This document shows, one piece after another, positions 900-14,197 of a DNA stretch of 26,434 bases. Positions within the stretch are counted from its first letter, which is position 1. Each line of letters begins with the position of its first letter. Below the pieces are notes generated by a model. The model searched no databases. It was given only the letters and a program-made list of their open reading frames with translations, and had not been told where the DNA came from. The translations under genes and the position numbers were made by a program. Origin of the DNA: a virus. Location of the stretch: positions 1 to 26,434 of the IMG/VR virus record IMGVR_UViG_3300009164_000310; one strand, 5' to 3'.

Positions 900-1187
900 T
901 CAATGCTCCACGGGGTTGGTTATGGCCTTCTCGGCGGGGGCGATGATGGTCTCCGCGATGTGGAAGGCGATGTACTTGCCGGTCCACTCCTTCACGTCGT
1001 CCATGAAGACTTCGATCACCTTCAATGGGGCGATGTTGTTCGGGGCGGCGACGTTGAAGACTGACTGCCCGGCGAGGGAGGCCATCGCTGCAAGGACCAC
1101 GGCGGCGTTTTCCCCATCGCAGACCTTCGAGAGCCTGAGAGCGAGGTCATAGGTGGCCTTGTGCATCTCTTCGGTGTCCATGCTCAT
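900..1187 (-). CDS. hypothetical phage protein, 95 aa
   Basis: The ATG at 1187 (MSMDTEEMHKATYDLAL) is chosen because AGGAG lies 6 bases upstream. An in-frame ATG at 1202 sits before that site. The product is a soluble, mostly helical protein with conserved-looking stretches (LRLSKVCDGENAAVVLAAM and FMDDVKEWTGKYIAFHIAE) but no motif that I can assign. It overlaps the end of the nuclease gene by 4 bases. Operon position suggests an early accessory role; nothing more specific is supported. Confidence 0.65.
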   Translation of the reverse strand: MSMDTEEMHKATYDLALRLSKVCDGENAAVVLAAMASLAGQSVFNVAAPNNIAPLKVIEVFMDDVKEWTGKYIAFHIAETIIAPAEKAITNPVEH

Positions 1188-1579
1188 GGTTTGCTCCTGC
1201 AATAGGGCTTCTGTTTCAGGGTGCGGCGGATGGCCATGGGTTCGAATGGTCGGTACATGGAGTCGGAGTAGCGAGCGCAGTCCAAGACGTACCCTCCACG
1301 GACCATGGCCTCGCCGAGATCCTCGCCCGCAGCCGTGTAGCAGATGGCCACCACCCGGTCGTAGGACTTCTGCCCCGTCGGCTCACAGCGAACGTAGTGG
1401 GTGCCCTTTACAAGGGCGCGCAGGGCGTCTCTGGCTCGCGGGCCATTGGGCTCGTCGAGTTCTTCAGCGTCGATTCCAAACAGGCGCACGGCCTGACCTT
1501 GGATCGTGAGGGTGTCCCCGTCATGAACTGACGGGGTGCCGATGAGGGCGGTGCAGAGACCGAGGACTGCGCAGATCAT
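1184..1579 (-). CDS. staphylococcal-nuclease-like (thermonuclease) protein
   Basis: This 131-residue protein matches the SNase fold, which cleaves DNA and RNA phosphodiester bonds with Ca2+. Visible motifs in order are V18-H-D20-G-D22-T, R32-L-F-G-I-D37 with acidic residues E39, E40 and E43, and Y-D74-R75-V-V-A. They correspond to the Asp, Arg, Glu and Arg active-site positions of the family. The C-terminal LGEAMVRGGYVLDCARYS is also typical. The first 15 or so residues (MICAVLGLCTALIGT) are hydrophobic and could be a short, poorly charged signal or anchor. The start overlaps the upstream stop (ATGA). Likely roles are host nucleic-acid degradation or nucleotide scavenging, which is inference. 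Confidence 0.85.
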   Translation of the reverse strand: MICAVLGLCTALIGTPSVHDGDTLTIQGQAVRLFGIDAEELDEPNGPRARDALRALVKGTHYVRCEPTGQKSYDRVVAICYTAAGEDLGEAMVRGGYVLDCARYSDSMYRPFEPMAIRRTLKQKPYCRSKP

Positions 1580-3070: not shown

Positions 3071-3294
3071 GCGGTGCGGACGGTCTTTCCGTTTTTGATG
3101 GGCTCGGGGAAGATGGCCGCGAACTGGCGACCACGCTCATAGGCCCACTGCTCGTTGGCGCAGTGCCGGTGGGCGTCATAGTCGATGGGCTTGCCTTGCA
3201 GGAAGGACCGGTGACCTTGGACAAAGGACGCCCGGCGCATGACCGTGCGCAGGGTGACCTTGTGGGTGGCGACTTGGCGGGGGGCGTGGGCCAT
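3022..3294 (-). CDS. hypothetical phage protein with YERGRQFA motif, 90 aa
   Basis: The start at 3294 (MAHAPRQVATHKV) overlaps the upstream stop in an ATGA arrangement, which favours it over the ATG at 3336. The 90-residue, basic, His-rich protein contains CANEQWAYERGRQFAAI (about residues 51-67). That segment is recurrent in small early phage proteins of unknown function and is probably a helix with a conserved Trp-Tyr-Arg face. The C-terminal 14 residues come from the duplicated junction segment and may not be ancestral to the protein. No enzymatic motif seen. Confidence 0.65.
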   Translation of the reverse strand: MAHAPRQVATHKVTLRTVMRRASFVQGHRSFLQGKPIDYDAHRHCANEQWAYERGRQFAAIFPEPIKNGKTVRTAALFAYAGALNRREIL

Positions 3295-3554
3295 CAGACG
3301 GACTCCACATGCGAGGAGACGGTCTTGCCATCCCATGAGAAGCGGGTGCGGGTGGCCGGGGCGAAGGTCTCCTGCGCCGTGGGCAACAGGATGGACAGGC
3401 CCTGAATGGCGGTCTCGAACCGGGCACGGATCGTGTCGGGGTATTGGGTTTCCCAGTACAAGAGGCTGGCGCAGTCGGACACCTCGGCAGCGAGGCGGCG
3501 GATTTCACGCAACACGAGCATGTCGCGGTCGGAGATGATGGGCGTCGGTTTCAT
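3294..3554 (-). CDS. hypothetical phage protein, 86 aa; first gene of the left operon
   Basis: The start at 3554 (MKPTPIISDRDML) is fixed by AGAAAGG with a 7-base spacer. The product is a soluble 86-residue protein with an N-terminal helix (DMLVLREIRRLAAEVSD), an aromatic patch (LLYWETQYPDTIRARFETAI) and a beta-like end. No family recognised. Being promoter-proximal in the leftward operon, it is likely made first. A small stem-loop (3578-3593) lies 23 bases upstream of the ATG, a layout shared with three other leftward genes. Confidence 0.65.
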   Translation of the reverse strand: MKPTPIISDRDMLVLREIRRLAAEVSDCASLLYWETQYPDTIRARFETAIQGLSILLPTAQETFAPATRTRFSWDGKTVSSHVESV

Positions 3555-3593: not shown

Positions 3594-3678
3594 TGGGGTG
3601 AGCATAGGATAGGGGTGGGAGGATGTCAACAGGGGGGAAACGGAAAAATGTGGGGGGATCGGGGTCCGTGGCCCTTTT

Positions 3679-3770
3679 GCTATAAAGAGGACAGGAAATC
3701 ACAGGGTTGATCACAAGGTGTGTCCTTAGAGAACCGGGGGATCACAGGGATCACAGGGTTGTTTTGAAAT
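3679..3770. repeat. left arm of a large inverted repeat with four iterons
   Basis: This arm pairs with 3901-3989 as an imperfect inverted repeat of about 90 bp. A 33-bp core, 3727-3759, is perfectly matched by 3911-3943. It carries ATCACAGGG at 3698, 3741 and 3750 and a variant ATCACAAGG at 3710. The copies at 3741 and 3750 are directly abutting. It lies in the presumed leader of the leftward operon. Confidence 0.92.
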
Positions 3771-3803
3771 TAGAACTTTACCGGCCGCGCGCACACATAG
3801 GTA

Positions 3804-3831
3804 AGTATAGTGAGTGCATACAGTATAACAA
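3804..3831 (-). promoter_or_regulatory. predicted leftward sigma70-type promoter between the repeat arms
   Basis: On the minus strand TTGTTA (3831-3826), a 16-base spacer and TATACT (3809-3804) fit a sigma70 promoter. It would start transcription near 3797 and give a leader of about 240 bases that includes the left arm. A nearby TTGACA (3837-3832) is too close to the first TATACT to pair with it. The extended TATACTTAC is shared with the promoter at 6381-6408. Confidence 0.5.
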
Positions 3832-3900
3832 TTGTCAATCAAGTCCTGCGCACACGTAACGGACCCCTAATCTGGTGACAATGCAGCCGAAAAATGGAAA

Positions 3901-3989
3901 TATTCGAAATACCCTGTGATCCCTGTGATCCCCCGGTTCTCTAGGGGTACACCCTGTGATCACCCTGTGATTTTCTCCCCTCTTTATGC
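3901..3989. repeat. right arm of a large inverted repeat with four iterons
   Basis: This arm carries CCCTGTGAT, the complement of the left-arm iteron, at 3912, 3921, 3952 and 3963. Spacing mirrors the left arm. It ends about 34 bases before the small terminase start. Next to its outer end is CTCTTTATGCTAAAA, mirrored by CTCTTTATAGCAAAA at the left arm's outer edge. Each contains a possible -10 (TATGCT or TATAGC) without a good -35, so any outward promoter here would probably need a bound protein. Confidence 0.92.
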
Positions 3990-4023
3990 TAAAACCCTGT
4001 TTCGGACACCGATGGAGGACCGC

Positions 4024-4620
4024 ATGGCGACCGCCAAAGCAACGCACAAGCCCAAGATGGACATCCTTGTGAACCCCAAGACCAAGGGGCTGACCGAGAA
4101 GCAGGAGAAGTTCTGCCGGATCTATGCCACCGAGGACGTCACCCGCACCGAGGCGGCGAGACAGGCCGGGTTTGCGGACAACACCGCAGCGTGGGCTGCG
4201 TCCCGGTTCCTGAATGGCCGGGACTATCCCCATGTTCTTGTCCGTATTGCCGAGATCAAGGAAGAACTCTCCCGCAAATACGAGGTGACCTTTGACAGTC
4301 ATATTCGCCAGCTTGCTAAGATCCGCGACATGGCTCTGGAGAAGGGGAACTACACCGCAGCGGTCGCGGCTGAGAAGTCTCGAGGACAGGCCGGTGGTTT
4401 GTATATCTCCCGCAGCGAGATCCTTGTGGGAAAGATCGACCAGATGTCCCGCGAGGACGTCATCGCCGAGATTGCCAAGCTCCAGCAGCAATTCCCCGTC
4501 CTGATGCAGTCCACCTCCCCCACCATCGACATGGTCGCCAATGCCCGCGACGTCGATGGGATCCCCGACTTCGTCCCCGATGATGAGCGCCAGCGCATGG
4601 CCGAGGAGATCGACCAGTGA
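4024..4620 (+). CDS. terS: terminase small subunit
   Basis: The start at 4024 is set by GGAGG at 4014-4018; upstream in-frame ATGs at 4012 and 3916 lack such a site. The 198-residue protein has the N-terminal helix-turn-helix of the Terminase_2 type (LTEKQEKFCRIYA followed by TRTEAARQAGF, about residues 20-48). Next come a helical oligomerisation core (VRIAEIKEELSRKYEVTF and IRQLAKIRDMALEKGNY) and AAVAAEKSRGQAGGLYI. The acidic C-terminus probably contacts the large subunit. Its role is recognition of phage DNA and loading of the large terminase. It is encoded about 4 kb from the large subunit, which is unusual, and directly beside the iteron-bearing inverted repeat. Confidence 0.88.
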   Translation: MATAKATHKPKMDILVNPKTKGLTEKQEKFCRIYATEDVTRTEAARQAGFADNTAAWAASRFLNGRDYPHVLVRIAEIKEELSRKYEVTFDSHIRQLAKIRDMALEKGNYTAAVAAEKSRGQAGGLYISRSEILVGKIDQMSREDVIAEIAKLQQQFPVLMQSTSPTIDMVANARDVDGIPDFVPDDERQRMAEEIDQ

Positions 4621-8653: not shown

Positions 8654-8755
8654 ATGAAAGCCCCATCCTCCTGCAAATACGACTACGGTCCACGGACCAA
8701 GCACCCCTCCTTCTGGTCCAAGCTCCTCGTTCTCTGGCGCAAGTTCTTTCCATGA
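8654..8755 (+). CDS. possible 33-residue leader peptide coupled to the large terminase
   Basis: The frame starts MKAPSSCKYDYGPRTKHPSF and ends WSKLLVLWRKFFP. Its stop overlaps the terminase start (ATGA). It has no obvious ribosome-binding site. However, the terminase ATG also has none, so coupled translation from this short frame would explain how the terminase is started. The C-terminal half is aromatic and basic. Treat as tentative. Confidence 0.35.
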   Translation: MKAPSSCKYDYGPRTKHPSFWSKLLVLWRKFFP

Positions 8756-10221
8756 CCCCTGTTTCCCCCAAGATTGACGAGGACAACCTCAAGAAGCTGG
8801 CCAAGCTCTACGACCGGCTTGCTCAGTTGGAGTCCTCGAAGAAGGCCCACGACAACTTCTTGGAGTACGTGAAGTTCGTTTGGCCGGGGTTCATTGCCGG
8901 GCGGCACCACAAGATTGTGGCGCAGAAGCTGGAGGCCGTGGCCAACGGAACATTGAAGCGCCTGATCATCAATATGCCACCGAGGCACACGAAGTCGGAG
9001 TTCGCCAGCTACTTGTTCCCCTCGTGGTTCATTGGCCGGGTGCCGACGAAGAAGATCATGCAGGCCACCCACACGGCGGACCTCTCGATCCGCTTCGGGC
9101 GCAAGGTCAGAAACCTGATGGACGGGGAGGAATATCACAAGGTCTTCCCAGACGTGAAGCTTCGGGCCGACAGCAAGGCGGCGTACCGCTGGGAGACGGA
9201 TGACGGCGGTGAGTACTACGCGGCGGGTGTGGGCGGCAGCATTGCTGGTCGCGGCGCGGACCTCTTCATTGTGGATGACCCGCACTCCGAACAGGACGCC
9301 TTGAGCCCCACTGCTTTGGACAACGCTTGGGAGTGGTACATGTCTGGCCCGCGCCAGCGTCTGCAACCCGGCGGGGCAATTGTCATCGTCATGACGCGCT
9401 GGGGTGACGCTGATCTGACGGCTCGGCTTTTGAAGCAGCAGGCCACGGACCCCAAGGCCGACCAGTGGGACGTCGTGGAGTTCCCAGCCATCTTTGATAG
9501 CGGGGAGCCCCTATGGCCAGAATACTGGAAGCTGGAGGAACTGGAGAAGATCAAGGCTTCGATCTCGTTATCGAAGTGGATGGCGCAGTATATGCAGCGT
9601 CCTACCTCCGACGCCTCGTCTCTGATCAAGAGGGACTGGTGGAAGGTCTGGGAAAAGAAGGACATCCCGAGGCTCCAGTATGTGATCCAGAGCTACGACA
9701 CGGCGTTCCTCAAAACACGGACCGCTGACTATAGCGCCATCCAAACGTGGGGGGTGTTCTACCCCACCGAGGACTCGGCCCCCAACGCCATCCTCTTGGA
9801 CGCCAAGAAGGGCCGGTGGGAGTTCCCCGATCTGAAACGGGTGACGCTTGAGGAGTACAAGTACTGGGAACCGGAGACGGTCTTGATCGAGGCCAAGGCT
9901 TCGGGGACGCCGCTGACGCAGGAACTGCGGGCCATGGGCATTCCTGTTGTAAACTTTACGCCTTCCCGTGGTAATGATAAACATTCGAGGGTGAACTCGA
10001 TCTCCCCTCTGTTCGAGTCCGGACTGATCTGGAGGCCGGATGCCTCATGGGCGGAGGAAGTCGTGGAGGAACTGGCGTCTTTCCCCTTCGGTGAGCATGA
10101 CGATCACGTCGATTGCGCCAGCCAAGCCTTGATGCGGTTCCGACAGGGTGGGTTCATCGGCCACCCCGATGATTACCAGATGGAAATGACCAAGCGTCCA
10201 TCCAACAGGGTCTATTACTAA
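8752..10221 (+). CDS. terL: terminase large subunit
   Basis: This 489-residue packaging motor drives DNA into the procapsid with ATP and cuts the concatemer. The ATPase part has a Walker A-like P76-P-R-H-T-K-S-E (about 76-83), Walker B L171-F-I-V-D-D176-P and a coupling motif T-R-W (215-217). The RNase H-like nuclease part has Y-D316-T-A-F, a second acidic site at V-L-I-E380-A-K, and H-D451-D-H-V-D454-C. Length and motif spacing are normal and complete. The start overlaps the stop of a 33-codon frame and has no own Shine-Dalgarno. The stop overlaps the portal start (TAATG). Confidence 0.96.
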   Translation: MTPVSPKIDEDNLKKLAKLYDRLAQLESSKKAHDNFLEYVKFVWPGFIAGRHHKIVAQKLEAVANGTLKRLIINMPPRHTKSEFASYLFPSWFIGRVPTKKIMQATHTADLSIRFGRKVRNLMDGEEYHKVFPDVKLRADSKAAYRWETDDGGEYYAAGVGGSIAGRGADLFIVDDPHSEQDALSPTALDNAWEWYMSGPRQRLQPGGAIVIVMTRWGDADLTARLLKQQATDPKADQWDVVEFPAIFDSGEPLWPEYWKLEELEKIKASISLSKWMAQYMQRPTSDASSLIKRDWWKVWEKKDIPRLQYVIQSYDTAFLKTRTADYSAIQTWGVFYPTEDSAPNAILLDAKKGRWEFPDLKRVTLEEYKYWEPETVLIEAKASGTPLTQELRAMGIPVVNFTPSRGNDKHSRVNSISPLFESGLIWRPDASWAEEVVEELASFPFGEHDDHVDCASQALMRFRQGGFIGHPDDYQMEMTKRPSNRVYY

Positions 10222-12641
10222 TGGCAAAGTCCCGCTTCAACAACGTAGACAAGGGCCTGATGCAGGCTCCCATGGATCTTGAAGACGAGGACATGCCCGA
10301 AATGGAAGCCGAGGGCGAAGGTCCGGAGGCCGAGGACGACTTCACCATCGAAGAGGATGACGAGGGCGGCGCGCTCATCACCTATGGCTCATCGACCGAG
10401 AACAAGGACATCTCAACCCTTGGTTTCGGTGACAATTTGGCCGAGGAGATGGAGGAGAAGGTCCTCCGCGCCATGTCCAAGGAACTTTCCAACGCTGTTG
10501 AAGAGGACGACGAGAGCCGCGAAGAGTGGCGTAGGATGTACGAGGAGGGGCTCACGCTCCTTGGCCTGACCTACGACGACCGGACGGAGCCCTTTGAAGG
10601 GTCAACCGGCGTCACGCACCCCATCTTGAACGAGGCCGTCACCCAGTTTCAGGCGCAGGCCTACAAGGAAATGCTGCCTGCTGGTGGCCCGGCCCGCTCG
10701 CAGATCCTTGGAGAGGTGACCCCTGAGAAGGAGTTGCAGGCCGCGAGGGTCAAGGACTTCCTCAATTACTACATCACTGTTGAGATGGAGGAGTACGACC
10801 CTGACTATGACCAGATGCTGTACTATCTGGGCTATGGTGGGTCCACCTTCAAGAAGATCTACAGGGATGGGGAATTAGGGCGGGCTGTTTCCCCCTACGT
10901 TTTGCCCAAGGACCTCATCGTACCCTACGGTGCGCGCGATCTGGCGACCGCCGACCGCGTCACGCACGTCATCCGCATCAGCCGCAACGACCTCCGCAAG
11001 CAGCAAGTGTCCGGTTTCTACCGTGATATCGACTTGCAAGAGCCTGCGGAGATGGAGCGGGACGACATTGTCGAGAAGACCGACAAGATCACGGGCATCG
11101 AGCCTGCTTCTGACACGGACGACTACACCCTCTACGAGATCCACACATACTTAGACCTCGAAGGGTTGGAGGATGCGGCTGAAGACGGCGAGTTGACCGG
11201 CATCAAGCTGCCCTACATCGTCACGATCAACGTCGATACCGGCGATATCCTGTCGATCCGCCGGAATTACGACGAAAAGGACCCCAAGAAGCGCAAGCGC
11301 CAGTACTTCGTCCACTACAAGTTCATGCCCGGCCTTGGTTTCTACGGCTTTGGGCTAGTGCATCTGCTTGGAAACCTGTCGAGAAGCTCGACTTCGATCC
11401 TTCGGCAGCTCATCGACGCCGGGACGCTGTCGAATTTGCCTGCTGGGTTCAAGGCCAAGGGCCTGCGCATCCAAGATGAGGGCGCTTTGCTCCAGCCGGG
11501 TGAGTGGCGCGACGTTGATGCCCCCGGCGGGAGCCTGAGAGACAGCTTGCTGCCCCTTCCCTACAAGGAACCCAGCGCAGTCCTCATGCAACTGCTTGGT
11601 TTCTGCGTTTCGGCGGCGGAAAAGTTCATCGGAACGGCTGATTTGGGCATGACTGACTCCAATCAGGAGATGCCGGTCGGGACAACCATCGCTTTGCTGG
11701 AGCGTGGGAGCCGTGTGTTGAGCGCGGTCCACAAACGGCTGCACTATGCCCAGAAACAGGAGCTTAAACTCCTCACGAGGGCCATTCGGGAGAGCGTGAA
11801 CGCCTACCCCTATGAGGTGAAGGGCGGTCCGCAGATCTTCGTGCAGGATTTCGACGACCGGATTGACATTATCCCGACTTCGGACCCCAATATCTTCTCG
11901 ATGACCCAGCGTATCGCGCTGGCGCAGCAGCAGTTGCAGCTTGCTCAGTCTGCACCTCAGATGCACAACCAGTACGAGGCGTTCCACAGCATGTACTCGG
12001 CTCTCGGGGTGCGTGACATCGACTTGTTGCTGCCGCCCCCGCCCAAACCGCAGCCTGAAGGCCCGGCAATGGAGAACTCTCGCTCCATGATCGTGCCGAA
12101 TGGCGCTCCGCAACTGCGGGCGTTCCCCGATCAGGACCATATGTCCCATATCGCGGCCCATATCGCCTTCATCAAGACTCCTTTGATCCAGACTTCCCCG
12201 CAAGTTTACGGCATCCTGCTGGCCCACATCTTCGAACACATCACCTACATGGCTATGCAGCAGGCCCAGCAACATGCACAGGAAGCCTACCAAAGCATGC
12301 AGCAGATGCCGGGCGCACCGCCGCCTCCCCCGCCCCCAGCAGCTCTTCTCCAGAAGGCTGCGGCTGCGCTGGAGAACCAGATGATCGCACAGGTTCTGGG
12401 GCAGTTGAACCCGCAGAAAACTGACGATCCGTTGATCCAACTCCAGCAGCGGGACCTCGACATCCGTGAGCAGGCGGTTAAACTGAAGTCTGAGGAAGCC
12501 GCTCTGCGCATTGACCTTGATGAGCGGAAGCTTCAGCAGCGTCAGGCCGAGGATGACAAGAAGCGAGCCTCCTTGGAAGACATCCAACAGCTCCGCGCCA
12601 ACGTCTCCCTTGCCCGCGCCCGTGAATCCAAGAGGGTCTAA
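10221..12641 (+). CDS. portal protein
   Basis: This 806-residue protein follows the large terminase directly (TAATG overlap), the standard position of the portal, the dodecameric ring through which DNA enters. It has a very acidic N-terminus (about residues 1-60). A core with EEWRRMYEEGLTLLG, FEGSTGVTHPILNEAV and YLGYGGSTFKKIYRDG is typical of long portals of podovirus-like and related marine phages. Residues near 698-708 are a proline run, and the C-terminus is a Gln-rich charged coiled coil (LQLQQRDLDIREQAVKLK). It is larger than average, perhaps because of the tail helices (barrel). Assigned from position and core pattern. Confidence 0.88.
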   Translation: MAKSRFNNVDKGLMQAPMDLEDEDMPEMEAEGEGPEAEDDFTIEEDDEGGALITYGSSTENKDISTLGFGDNLAEEMEEKVLRAMSKELSNAVEEDDESREEWRRMYEEGLTLLGLTYDDRTEPFEGSTGVTHPILNEAVTQFQAQAYKEMLPAGGPARSQILGEVTPEKELQAARVKDFLNYYITVEMEEYDPDYDQMLYYLGYGGSTFKKIYRDGELGRAVSPYVLPKDLIVPYGARDLATADRVTHVIRISRNDLRKQQVSGFYRDIDLQEPAEMERDDIVEKTDKITGIEPASDTDDYTLYEIHTYLDLEGLEDAAEDGELTGIKLPYIVTINVDTGDILSIRRNYDEKDPKKRKRQYFVHYKFMPGLGFYGFGLVHLLGNLSRSSTSILRQLIDAGTLSNLPAGFKAKGLRIQDEGALLQPGEWRDVDAPGGSLRDSLLPLPYKEPSAVLMQLLGFCVSAAEKFIGTADLGMTDSNQEMPVGTTIALLERGSRVLSAVHKRLHYAQKQELKLLTRAIRESVNAYPYEVKGGPQIFVQDFDDRIDIIPTSDPNIFSMTQRIALAQQQLQLAQSAPQMHNQYEAFHSMYSALGVRDIDLLLPPPPKPQPEGPAMENSRSMIVPNGAPQLRAFPDQDHMSHIAAHIAFIKTPLIQTSPQVYGILLAHIFEHITYMAMQQAQQHAQEAYQSMQQMPGAPPPPPPPAALLQKAAAALENQMIAQVLGQLNPQKTDDPLIQLQQRDLDIREQAVKLKSEEAALRIDLDERKLQQRQAEDDKKRASLEDIQQLRANVSLARARESKRV

Positions 12642-14197
12642 TGGCCTCGACCAAAGAACTTTTCGCCAACATCGAGTCCAAGTACCGCCTCCCCAGCGGC
12701 TACTTGGCGCGCACCTACCAGCTTGAGAGCGGTAGCGGAAAGGACGTCTACAACAAAAGTAGCGGGGCTGAAGGTCCTTTTCAGTTCATGCCTAAGACGT
12801 CCAAAGGCATGGGGCTCACCGATCCGTATGATCTCGAAGCTTCCGCTGAGGCCACGGCGCGCTTGGCTGTTCAGAACAGGGCCATCCTCCAACGAAAAGG
12901 GATCGAAAACCCTGACGGAAAGGTGCTGTATCTGGCCCACCAACAGGGTGCTGAGGGGGCGGCAGCAATCCTGAAGGGTGGGGATGCGCCTGCGGTATCT
13001 GCTCTGGGCTCGCTAGCGGCCTACAAAGACAAGCCAAGGGTTGCGCAGCAGGCCGTCGTTGGCAATGGCGGTTCCGTGGATATGCCGTCCAGCGCCTTTG
13101 CTAACAAGGTCATGGCGAAGTACGAGGGTGATGACGCCAGCGACAAGCTACGCCCCTACAGCGCCCTTGGTGAGACGCCGCCCATCGACAAGGTGGCGCA
13201 AGACTCCCCCCTCGCCGCGCCAAACACTGCTGATGTACTGGAGGAGACGGCTGATTCCGAGGACACCGGGTCCTCAAAGAGACAGAGCTATGCACTGAAC
13301 GCATTGCTCAGTGCTTCAGACTCTCTTCAGCAGCAACAGCAAACCCCCATGCTCCAGATCCCTCGTCTGTCGTACGCCGCTGGCGGGATTGTTGATCTGT
13401 TGCAGAAGGCCAAGAACCCCGCCCCGATCAATGTTCCCGAGACTACAGCGCGTGTCCTGAACGAGATAACCCTCATCTCCAAGAAAGGTAACCTTGACGC
13501 GGGCAAGATTGCTTTCCTTCTCCGCATGGCCTCCACAAACACGATCCCTCCCGAGAAGGCGGCTGAGTTTGCCGCTGAAATCTTGGCAAGAGACACGGCT
13601 TCGATCCTGCGCCGCGTTGAGCGGTACTCCCGCGCACTCCGCATGTTGGCCCGTTTGGATCTGGCCCTTGGCGGTTTGGAGGGGCAGGGCTATGGCCTTG
13701 TCGCAAACCAGCACAAGCGTTTTCTCCCGCAGCCCACAAAGCGCATGGGGCATGACACGAAGATAGCCAAGCCCTTTGCAAAAGGTGGCGTGGTCGAGAG
13801 CCGCCCCAAAAACACCGTCGCGTTCCAAGAACTGGCCCAGCACTCCGTTAACCGCTACGGATTACAGATTGGGAACAACCTTATCCGCCGGTCCGAGAGC
13901 GACCCCGACAAACTTTTCTTTGCCCTCAACCAGTACGCGAAGAACGTGGTCGGACGCAGATCCTCCCTCTACGCGAGGGAACTTAAGTACCTCAGCGACA
14001 TCTCCAAGAAGTTCAAACTATCCCCAAAAAAAGAGTTCAACAGGACGGAAGACGCACTGGATACCGAGGCCGAGCTTGATGGCTACATCAAGAATGTGCC
14101 AAAACAGGATGCAGCCTTCCGTGATGCGCTTTTGAGAATGAAAGCTATGGTCGGCTGGAAACCAAAGGTGGGGTCAAAGAATGGACGACAACCTTAA
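12641..14197 (+). CDS. lytic transglycosylase-like virion protein
   Basis: This 518-residue protein starts at the portal stop (TAATG). Residues 15-115 match the lysozyme-like SLT domain: the catalytic glutamate is E29 in YQLES, followed by AEGPFQFMPKT (about 43-53) and VLYLAHQQG (95-103). It would cleave peptidoglycan glycan strands, probably during DNA entry. Residues 190-250 are linker-like with a Gln run. Two AGG/KGG boxes (YAAGGIV, encoded at 13373; FAKGGVV, at 13775) bracket a helical segment. The C-terminal 150 residues are basic, with no known domain. The large C-terminal part is unusual for a simple endolysin and fits a virion-borne protein. Confidence 0.85.
   Translation: MASTKELFANIESKYRLPSGYLARTYQLESGSGKDVYNKSSGAEGPFQFMPKTSKGMGLTDPYDLEASAEATARLAVQNRAILQRKGIENPDGKVLYLAHQQGAEGAAAILKGGDAPAVSALGSLAAYKDKPRVAQQAVVGNGGSVDMPSSAFANKVMAKYEGDDASDKLRPYSALGETPPIDKVAQDSPLAAPNTADVLEETADSEDTGSSKRQSYALNALLSASDSLQQQQQTPMLQIPRLSYAAGGIVDLLQKAKNPAPINVPETTARVLNEITLISKKGNLDAGKIAFLLRMASTNTIPPEKAAEFAAEILARDTASILRRVERYSRALRMLARLDLALGGLEGQGYGLVANQHKRFLPQPTKRMGHDTKIAKPFAKGGVVESRPKNTVAFQELAQHSVNRYGLQIGNNLIRRSESDPDKLFFALNQYAKNVVGRRSSLYARELKYLSDISKKFKLSPKKEFNRTEDALDTEAELDGYIKNVPKQDAAFRDALLRMKAMVGWKPKVGSKNGRQP

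Follow-up and report, generated by a model that had tools for sequence, protein, structure and literature searches.

The packaging (pac) site of phage P1 lies at the gene of the small packaging subunit and comprises two clusters of short repeats on either side of a central cleavage region; these repeats are hexanucleotides containing GATC, without extended mirror arms, in which the site differs from the locus described here. The cos region of phage lambda (cosQ-cosN-cosB) bears a likeness to this locus in that its terminase sites are found upstream of terS and combine repeated binding motifs with a GC-rich centre. In phage SPP1, the small terminase subunit (TerS) binds pacL and pacR and recruits the large subunit (TerL) to cut pacC between them, and the pac region overlaps the terS promoters and the start of the gene (PMC6316719). 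The title of a reference in the same paper indicates autorepression of terS by its product in SPP1 (PMC6316719). The DNA-binding domain of SF6 TerS is a weak binder of pac DNA with little sequence specificity, and in the model proposed for this phage, a ring of DNA-binding domains selects bendable segments of about 100 bp (PMC4737164). Here, we analyze a mirror-image element of around 320 bp that adjoins terS, the gene for the start of phage genome packaging, in a 26,434-bp fragment of a podovirus-like genome (the window, which is the entire public record). Like the pac sites of SPP1 and SF6 (pacL-pacC-pacR), it adjoins a terS gene whose product belongs to the same Pfam family, its short repeats flank a central zone, the sequence of these repeats is poorly conserved among relatives, and helically phased bendable DNA is the recognition signal proposed. 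Unlike the SPP1 repeats, which are described as direct, those of the window are organized in two mirror arms of about 90 bp, and TerS binding and cleavage, putative here, were demonstrated for SPP1. We give only slightly less than an even chance to the reading that the element serves a lytic phage with a genome of roughly 57-60 kb as an SPP1/SF6-type pac site.

Local alignment of the left half against the reverse-complemented right half places the arms at 3675-3759 and 3911-3993, 151 bp apart, with a weaker match that continues inward to about 3770 and 3901 (left arm 3675-3770 on the plus strand, right arm 3901-3994 on the minus strand). The alignment score is 114, compared to a mean of 18 and a maximum of 24 in shuffled sequences (n = 20), and the runner-up inverted repeat of the record scores only 33. 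The large inverted repeat that a preliminary description had situated at 3679-3989 is therefore real and its coordinates were close; the 33-bp perfectly matched core (TAGAGAACCGGGGGATCACAGGGATCACAGGGT) is present in the arms as well. Eight copies of a 9-bp iteron had been claimed, of which seven are exact ATCACAGGG copies and one, at 3710, is ATCACAAGG with one mismatch. The left arm carries A1 (3698-3706), the near-exact A2 (3710-3718), B1 (3741-3749) and B2 (3750-3758) on the plus strand, and the right arm carries B2' (3912-3920), B1' (3921-3929), A2' (3952-3960) and A1' (3963-3971) on the minus strand. The spacing is mirrored, with 12-31-9 in the left and 11-31-9 in the right arm. A search for scattered copies, on which the preliminary description had made its claim depend, found no exact ATCACAGGG outside the arms in the whole record (0.21 expected by chance). 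The boxes and central elements were delimited by eye from the sequences. An outer end box, TTTTGCTATAAAG (3675-3687, plus strand), which occurs at both element ends in relatives, has its mirror copy at 3982-3994 on the minus strand (CTTTATGCTAAAA on the plus strand). Just outside the left arm lies GGTCCGTGGCCC (3663-3674), where relatives have a near-palindromic GGTCCRTGGACC. Between the arms, the CG-rich element C1 (TTTACCGGCCGCGCGCACACA; 3777-3797, plus strand), which is unchanged in close relatives with replaced arms, is followed by an AT-rich centre (3795-3844), in which duplex stability over 50 bp reaches the minimum of the record, and by C2 (GCGCACACGTAACGGACCCC; 3848-3867), a partial mirror of C1 as aligned by eye.

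An AT-rich centre suits a replication origin better than a pac site. A phage initiator would bind both iteron arrays, melt the centre and start replication in both directions, a role that we consider unlikely overall. Multiple iterons in helical phase and a mirror layout fitting two-way loading are consistent with it, as is the occurrence of a single such element per genome. As in the window, no other 50-bp duplex of the record is as unstable as the centre in G002, G005-G008 and DSL-LC04, but in G001, G018 and 023Pt_psg01 the centre does not stand out as weak. In SPP1 origins, too, an AT-rich region occurs together with direct repeats (PMC6316719). With SPP1 oriL/oriR or the lambda ori, the window element shares phased repeats next to a stretch of AT-rich DNA for unwinding; it differs in having two mirrored arrays around that stretch, in not being located in or beside a replication gene and in that no initiator gene was found. 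The GC skew, which the preliminary description had proposed to inspect, was computed for three circular genomes and shows no turn where the element lies, a result that stands against an origin but is not decisive.

As stated in the preliminary description, the element divides a leftward operon, of which the first gene (3294-3554, minus strand) has no assigned function, from the rightward terS (4024-4620, plus strand; Terminase_2 family, PF03592, E 7e-10), the start of which is 30 bp away. The genes for TerL (8752-10221) and the portal (10221-12641) are found further downstream. PDB matches of the window TerS are weak and are to small terminases, including SF6 TerS chains (E 0.012-0.033). A staphylococcal-nuclease-like gene (1184-1579, minus strand; PF00565, E 3e-6) belongs to the operon that runs leftward. 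Outside the inverted repeat, a sigma-70-like promoter (TTGACA-17-TATGCT; 3601-3629, minus strand) faces the leftward operon, and no promoter-like match was observed between the right arm and terS. The promoter just outside the left arm and the divergent genes that flank the element in the window and its close relatives would suit a symmetric operator or activator site that serves the early operon on the left and the terS operon on the right. A possible reader is a conserved early protein of 102 amino acids (L149:8001-8306 and orthologues; RMxxYRLR...YGxGY), which is present in the element-bearing genomes of this clade and looks like a stand-alone winged-helix domain. Against this candidate, it has no Pfam match and no clear match in a PDB search, its AlphaFold model is weak with an unreadable fold (mean pLDDT 51), and it shows 98% identity, and no co-variation with the arms, between genomes that differ in arm type. 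In G001 and DSL-LC04, genes intervene between the element and terS, and in 023Pt_psg01, where terS is inverted, the genes flanking the element are not divergent. This last genome weakens the case for a plain two-way operator, which we regard as quite improbable. The early operon of G007 also encodes a protein of 77 amino acids that weakly matches the alphaproteobacterial cell-cycle regulator GcrA (E 5e-5, below the Pfam cut-off); the match hints at an alphaproteobacterial host.

The window TerS matches 67 IMG/VR loci, around 47 of them closely, and the nearest named phages by TerL are HTVC027P, 023Pt_psg01, DSL-LC04 and HTVC023P (57-62%). All intact terS-upstream regions tested in the close group contain an inverted repeat (scores of 37-146; shuffles at most 25), and so does DSL-LC04 (52; shuffles at most 29), while the repeat of HTVC023P is marginal (24 versus 22 in shuffles). 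In DSL-LC04 and about 30 terS-bearing relatives, the strongest inverted repeat of the genome occupies the same intergenic place. In a whole-record scan, the element ranked first among the inverted repeats of every close-group record examined and occurred once per record, and nearly every relative sharing the gene layout has the arms, in line with the preliminary description. No such inverted repeat was found in HTVC027P or in the scanned 50 kb of CRP-901, and the element is not mentioned in the open-access papers that were searched, including those on the HTVC023P-like group. In all element-bearing relatives examined, the distance to terS stays within about 0.8 kb. About 0.6 kb separates the repeat of G001 (L005 contig; 12448-12722; score 113) from the downstream terS, and the gene that lies in this interval looks, by its residues alone, like a 2OG-Fe(II) oxygenase. 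The repeat of 023Pt_psg01 (13639-13861; score 42) is located about 0.5 kb past the end of the inverted terS, hence downstream of this gene, and holds pairs of TGGCACA together with the only CGCGCGCG found in that genome.

Among the four named phages only, a clear element tracks the more similar primase and not the more similar TerS. The primases of DSL-LC04 and 023Pt_psg01, which have a clear element, are 40-44% identical, compared to 28-29% for HTVC023P and HTVC027P, which do not. This distribution favours an origin, yet MW202510 lacks such a repeat with a primase that is 36% identical, and the consistent proximity to terS is not what an origin would lead one to expect. A difficulty for a pac site is that HTVC027P, with a TerS that is 39% identical, has no comparable repeat, while such a repeat is present in 023Pt_psg01, the TerS of which is only 28% identical. 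Some further sequences were noted in the survey. In place of a strong inverted repeat, the region upstream of HTVC023P terS contains CTAGGAAAA in several direct copies spaced by about 11 bp (L082:11687-11763). A region of the pelagiphage HTVC027P (L081:17897-18017) matches the Rfam family Flavobacterium-1 RNA (90 bits, cut-off 58.9). Exact copies of ATCACAGGGATCACAGGG in L072-L074 and L076-L079 were considered as further elements and rejected, as no inverted repeat is present there; they appear to reflect chance or repetitive coding DNA. Finally, a 57.5-kb near-complete relative of the window phage (L147, G018 contig 97, CAINWP010000097.1; TerS 93%) is filed under an uncultured Verrucomicrobia MAG and is probably a mis-binned phage genome.

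The arms differ in sequence from phage to phage, with ATCACAGGG, GTTAYGGGG, GTTCAAGGG, TCGCAGGG/TCCGGGGG (G018) and TATCAAA types, yet within each phage both arms match one another. The constant parts are the mirror symmetry, the outer box TTTTGCYWTAAAG at both ends, the CG-rich element (CCGGCCGCGCGCG) left of the centre and a second element near CGGACC. Hence, the literal ATCACAGGG of the preliminary description is not kept, whereas the mirror symmetry, the helical phasing, the CG-rich tract and the end boxes are. The spacing within the arms is 11-41-10 in L019 and L022, 11 or 21 followed by 40 in L025, and 40 in L009. Each of these shifts (from 31 to 40-41 bp and from 11 to 21 bp) amounts to about one turn of the helix, which is what bound proteins confined to one helical face would require. 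Across 14 phages, predicted bendability has a peak at a period of 10.5 bp in the left arms (z 3.7) as well as in the right arms (z 4.4), and this peak is absent from coding and upstream controls. The prediction relies on a simple trinucleotide scale, and the relatedness of the loci inflates the z-scores. Related sequences can also give rise to peaks at different periods, as seen in the controls (z 4.8 at period 8 in one coding control), and the signal is therefore used as supporting evidence only. As the mirror image is kept in about 30 aquatic relatives while the letters change, the comparison suggests that the phage reads the spacing and shape of the element. The arms are complementary in every relative, which could also reflect their pairing in a transcript as a long hairpin that acts as a control element or non-coding RNA. 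The mismatches between the arms, however, have no G-U-compatible bias on either strand (52 versus 55), indicating that RNA pairing does not keep the arms alike. With frequent transversions (153), no Rfam match in the window and a helical-turn spacing that is a feature of DNA, such a hairpin is very unlikely.

A natural arm swap is found between near-identical genomes. L016, L019 and L022 carry ATCACAGGG-type arms and L025, L026 and L049 carry GTTAYGGGG-type arms, while the DNA on both sides is near-identical between the two groups (except for a stretch in which L019 diverges) and the CG-rich central element is unchanged. Full-length TerS copies are 97-99% identical between these groups, for which reason a base-by-base reading of the iterons by TerS was rejected. 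Across the TCACAGGG, GTTAYGGGG and GTTCAAGGG arm types, TerS is 77-100% identical overall. In a comparison of G005-G008 that covered the adjacent 16 kb and part of the late region, the windows of these 16 kb in which G005 clearly groups with G006, and apart from G007 and G008, are confined to the element and to short stretches at the 3' end of terS and in the following gene. The TerS protein does not follow these terS stretches between L022 and L026. No block of at least 300 bp in the adjacent 16 kb follows the arm type, the polymerase, primase and helicase genes included. Consequently, no allele of TerS or of a core replication protein tracks the arm type, no co-varying reader gene was found in the early operon, and no co-varying initiator is visible, which counts against an origin. 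We only tentatively put forward, as a possibility that we rate well below even, that the site is kept as a mirror image with a helical rhythm and not as a sequence, the arms being swapped or rewritten together while the reading protein does not change.

Our best reading favours packaging over replication initiation, which is a serious rival; of the three roles listed in the preliminary description, these two remain, and the two-operon operator is the weakest given 023Pt_psg01. Combined roles are possible, in view of the autorepression indicated for SPP1 TerS. As a pac site, each arm of about 90 bp would wrap a ring of the TerS encoded next door, with the iterons as bendable steps one helical turn apart, so that the phasing and flexibility of the DNA would matter more to the ring than the letters themselves. 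The wrapped arms would flank a putative cut zone (C1, the AT-rich stretch and C2) that the large terminase would cleave, and bound TerS could repress its own gene too. In favour of a pac site, the element stays near terS even with a gene in between (G001, DSL-LC04) or with terS inverted (023Pt_psg01), and the arm types vary while TerS, a Terminase_2 protein with SF6 TerS chains among its weak PDB matches, is near-constant. The bendable-segment model of SF6 predicts arms that keep phase and not sequence, with which the whole-turn spacing shifts and the 10.5-bp predicted bendability of both arms agree. Complete relatives give circular assemblies in which the element is internal and the point of circularisation lies away from it, and the window spans the ends of G018, as for permuted or terminally redundant genomes; direct terminal repeats away from the element are compatible with these circular assemblies as well. 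Fixed cohesive ends as in lambda are unlikely here, and fixed cos ends at the element itself were rejected, as about 30 public contigs extend across it and it is also present in circular assemblies. On the other hand, headful packaging is one-directional and the arms are near-perfect mirror images, so any direction would have to come from the asymmetric centre, and the SPP1 pac has direct repeats instead of mirror arms.

Were the element an origin, it would be the first candidate replication start site for an abundant group of aquatic phages. How the TerS of pac phages recognizes its own genome is still disputed, as isolated DNA-binding domains display little sequence preference, and whole-site swaps against a near-constant TerS offer a direct way to ask whether spacing and bendability suffice. 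If the site is indeed kept as a mirrored helical rhythm, the swaps would constitute comparative-genomic evidence for shape-coded genome recognition, and satellites or defences that mimic the site may possibly drive the turnover of its arms.
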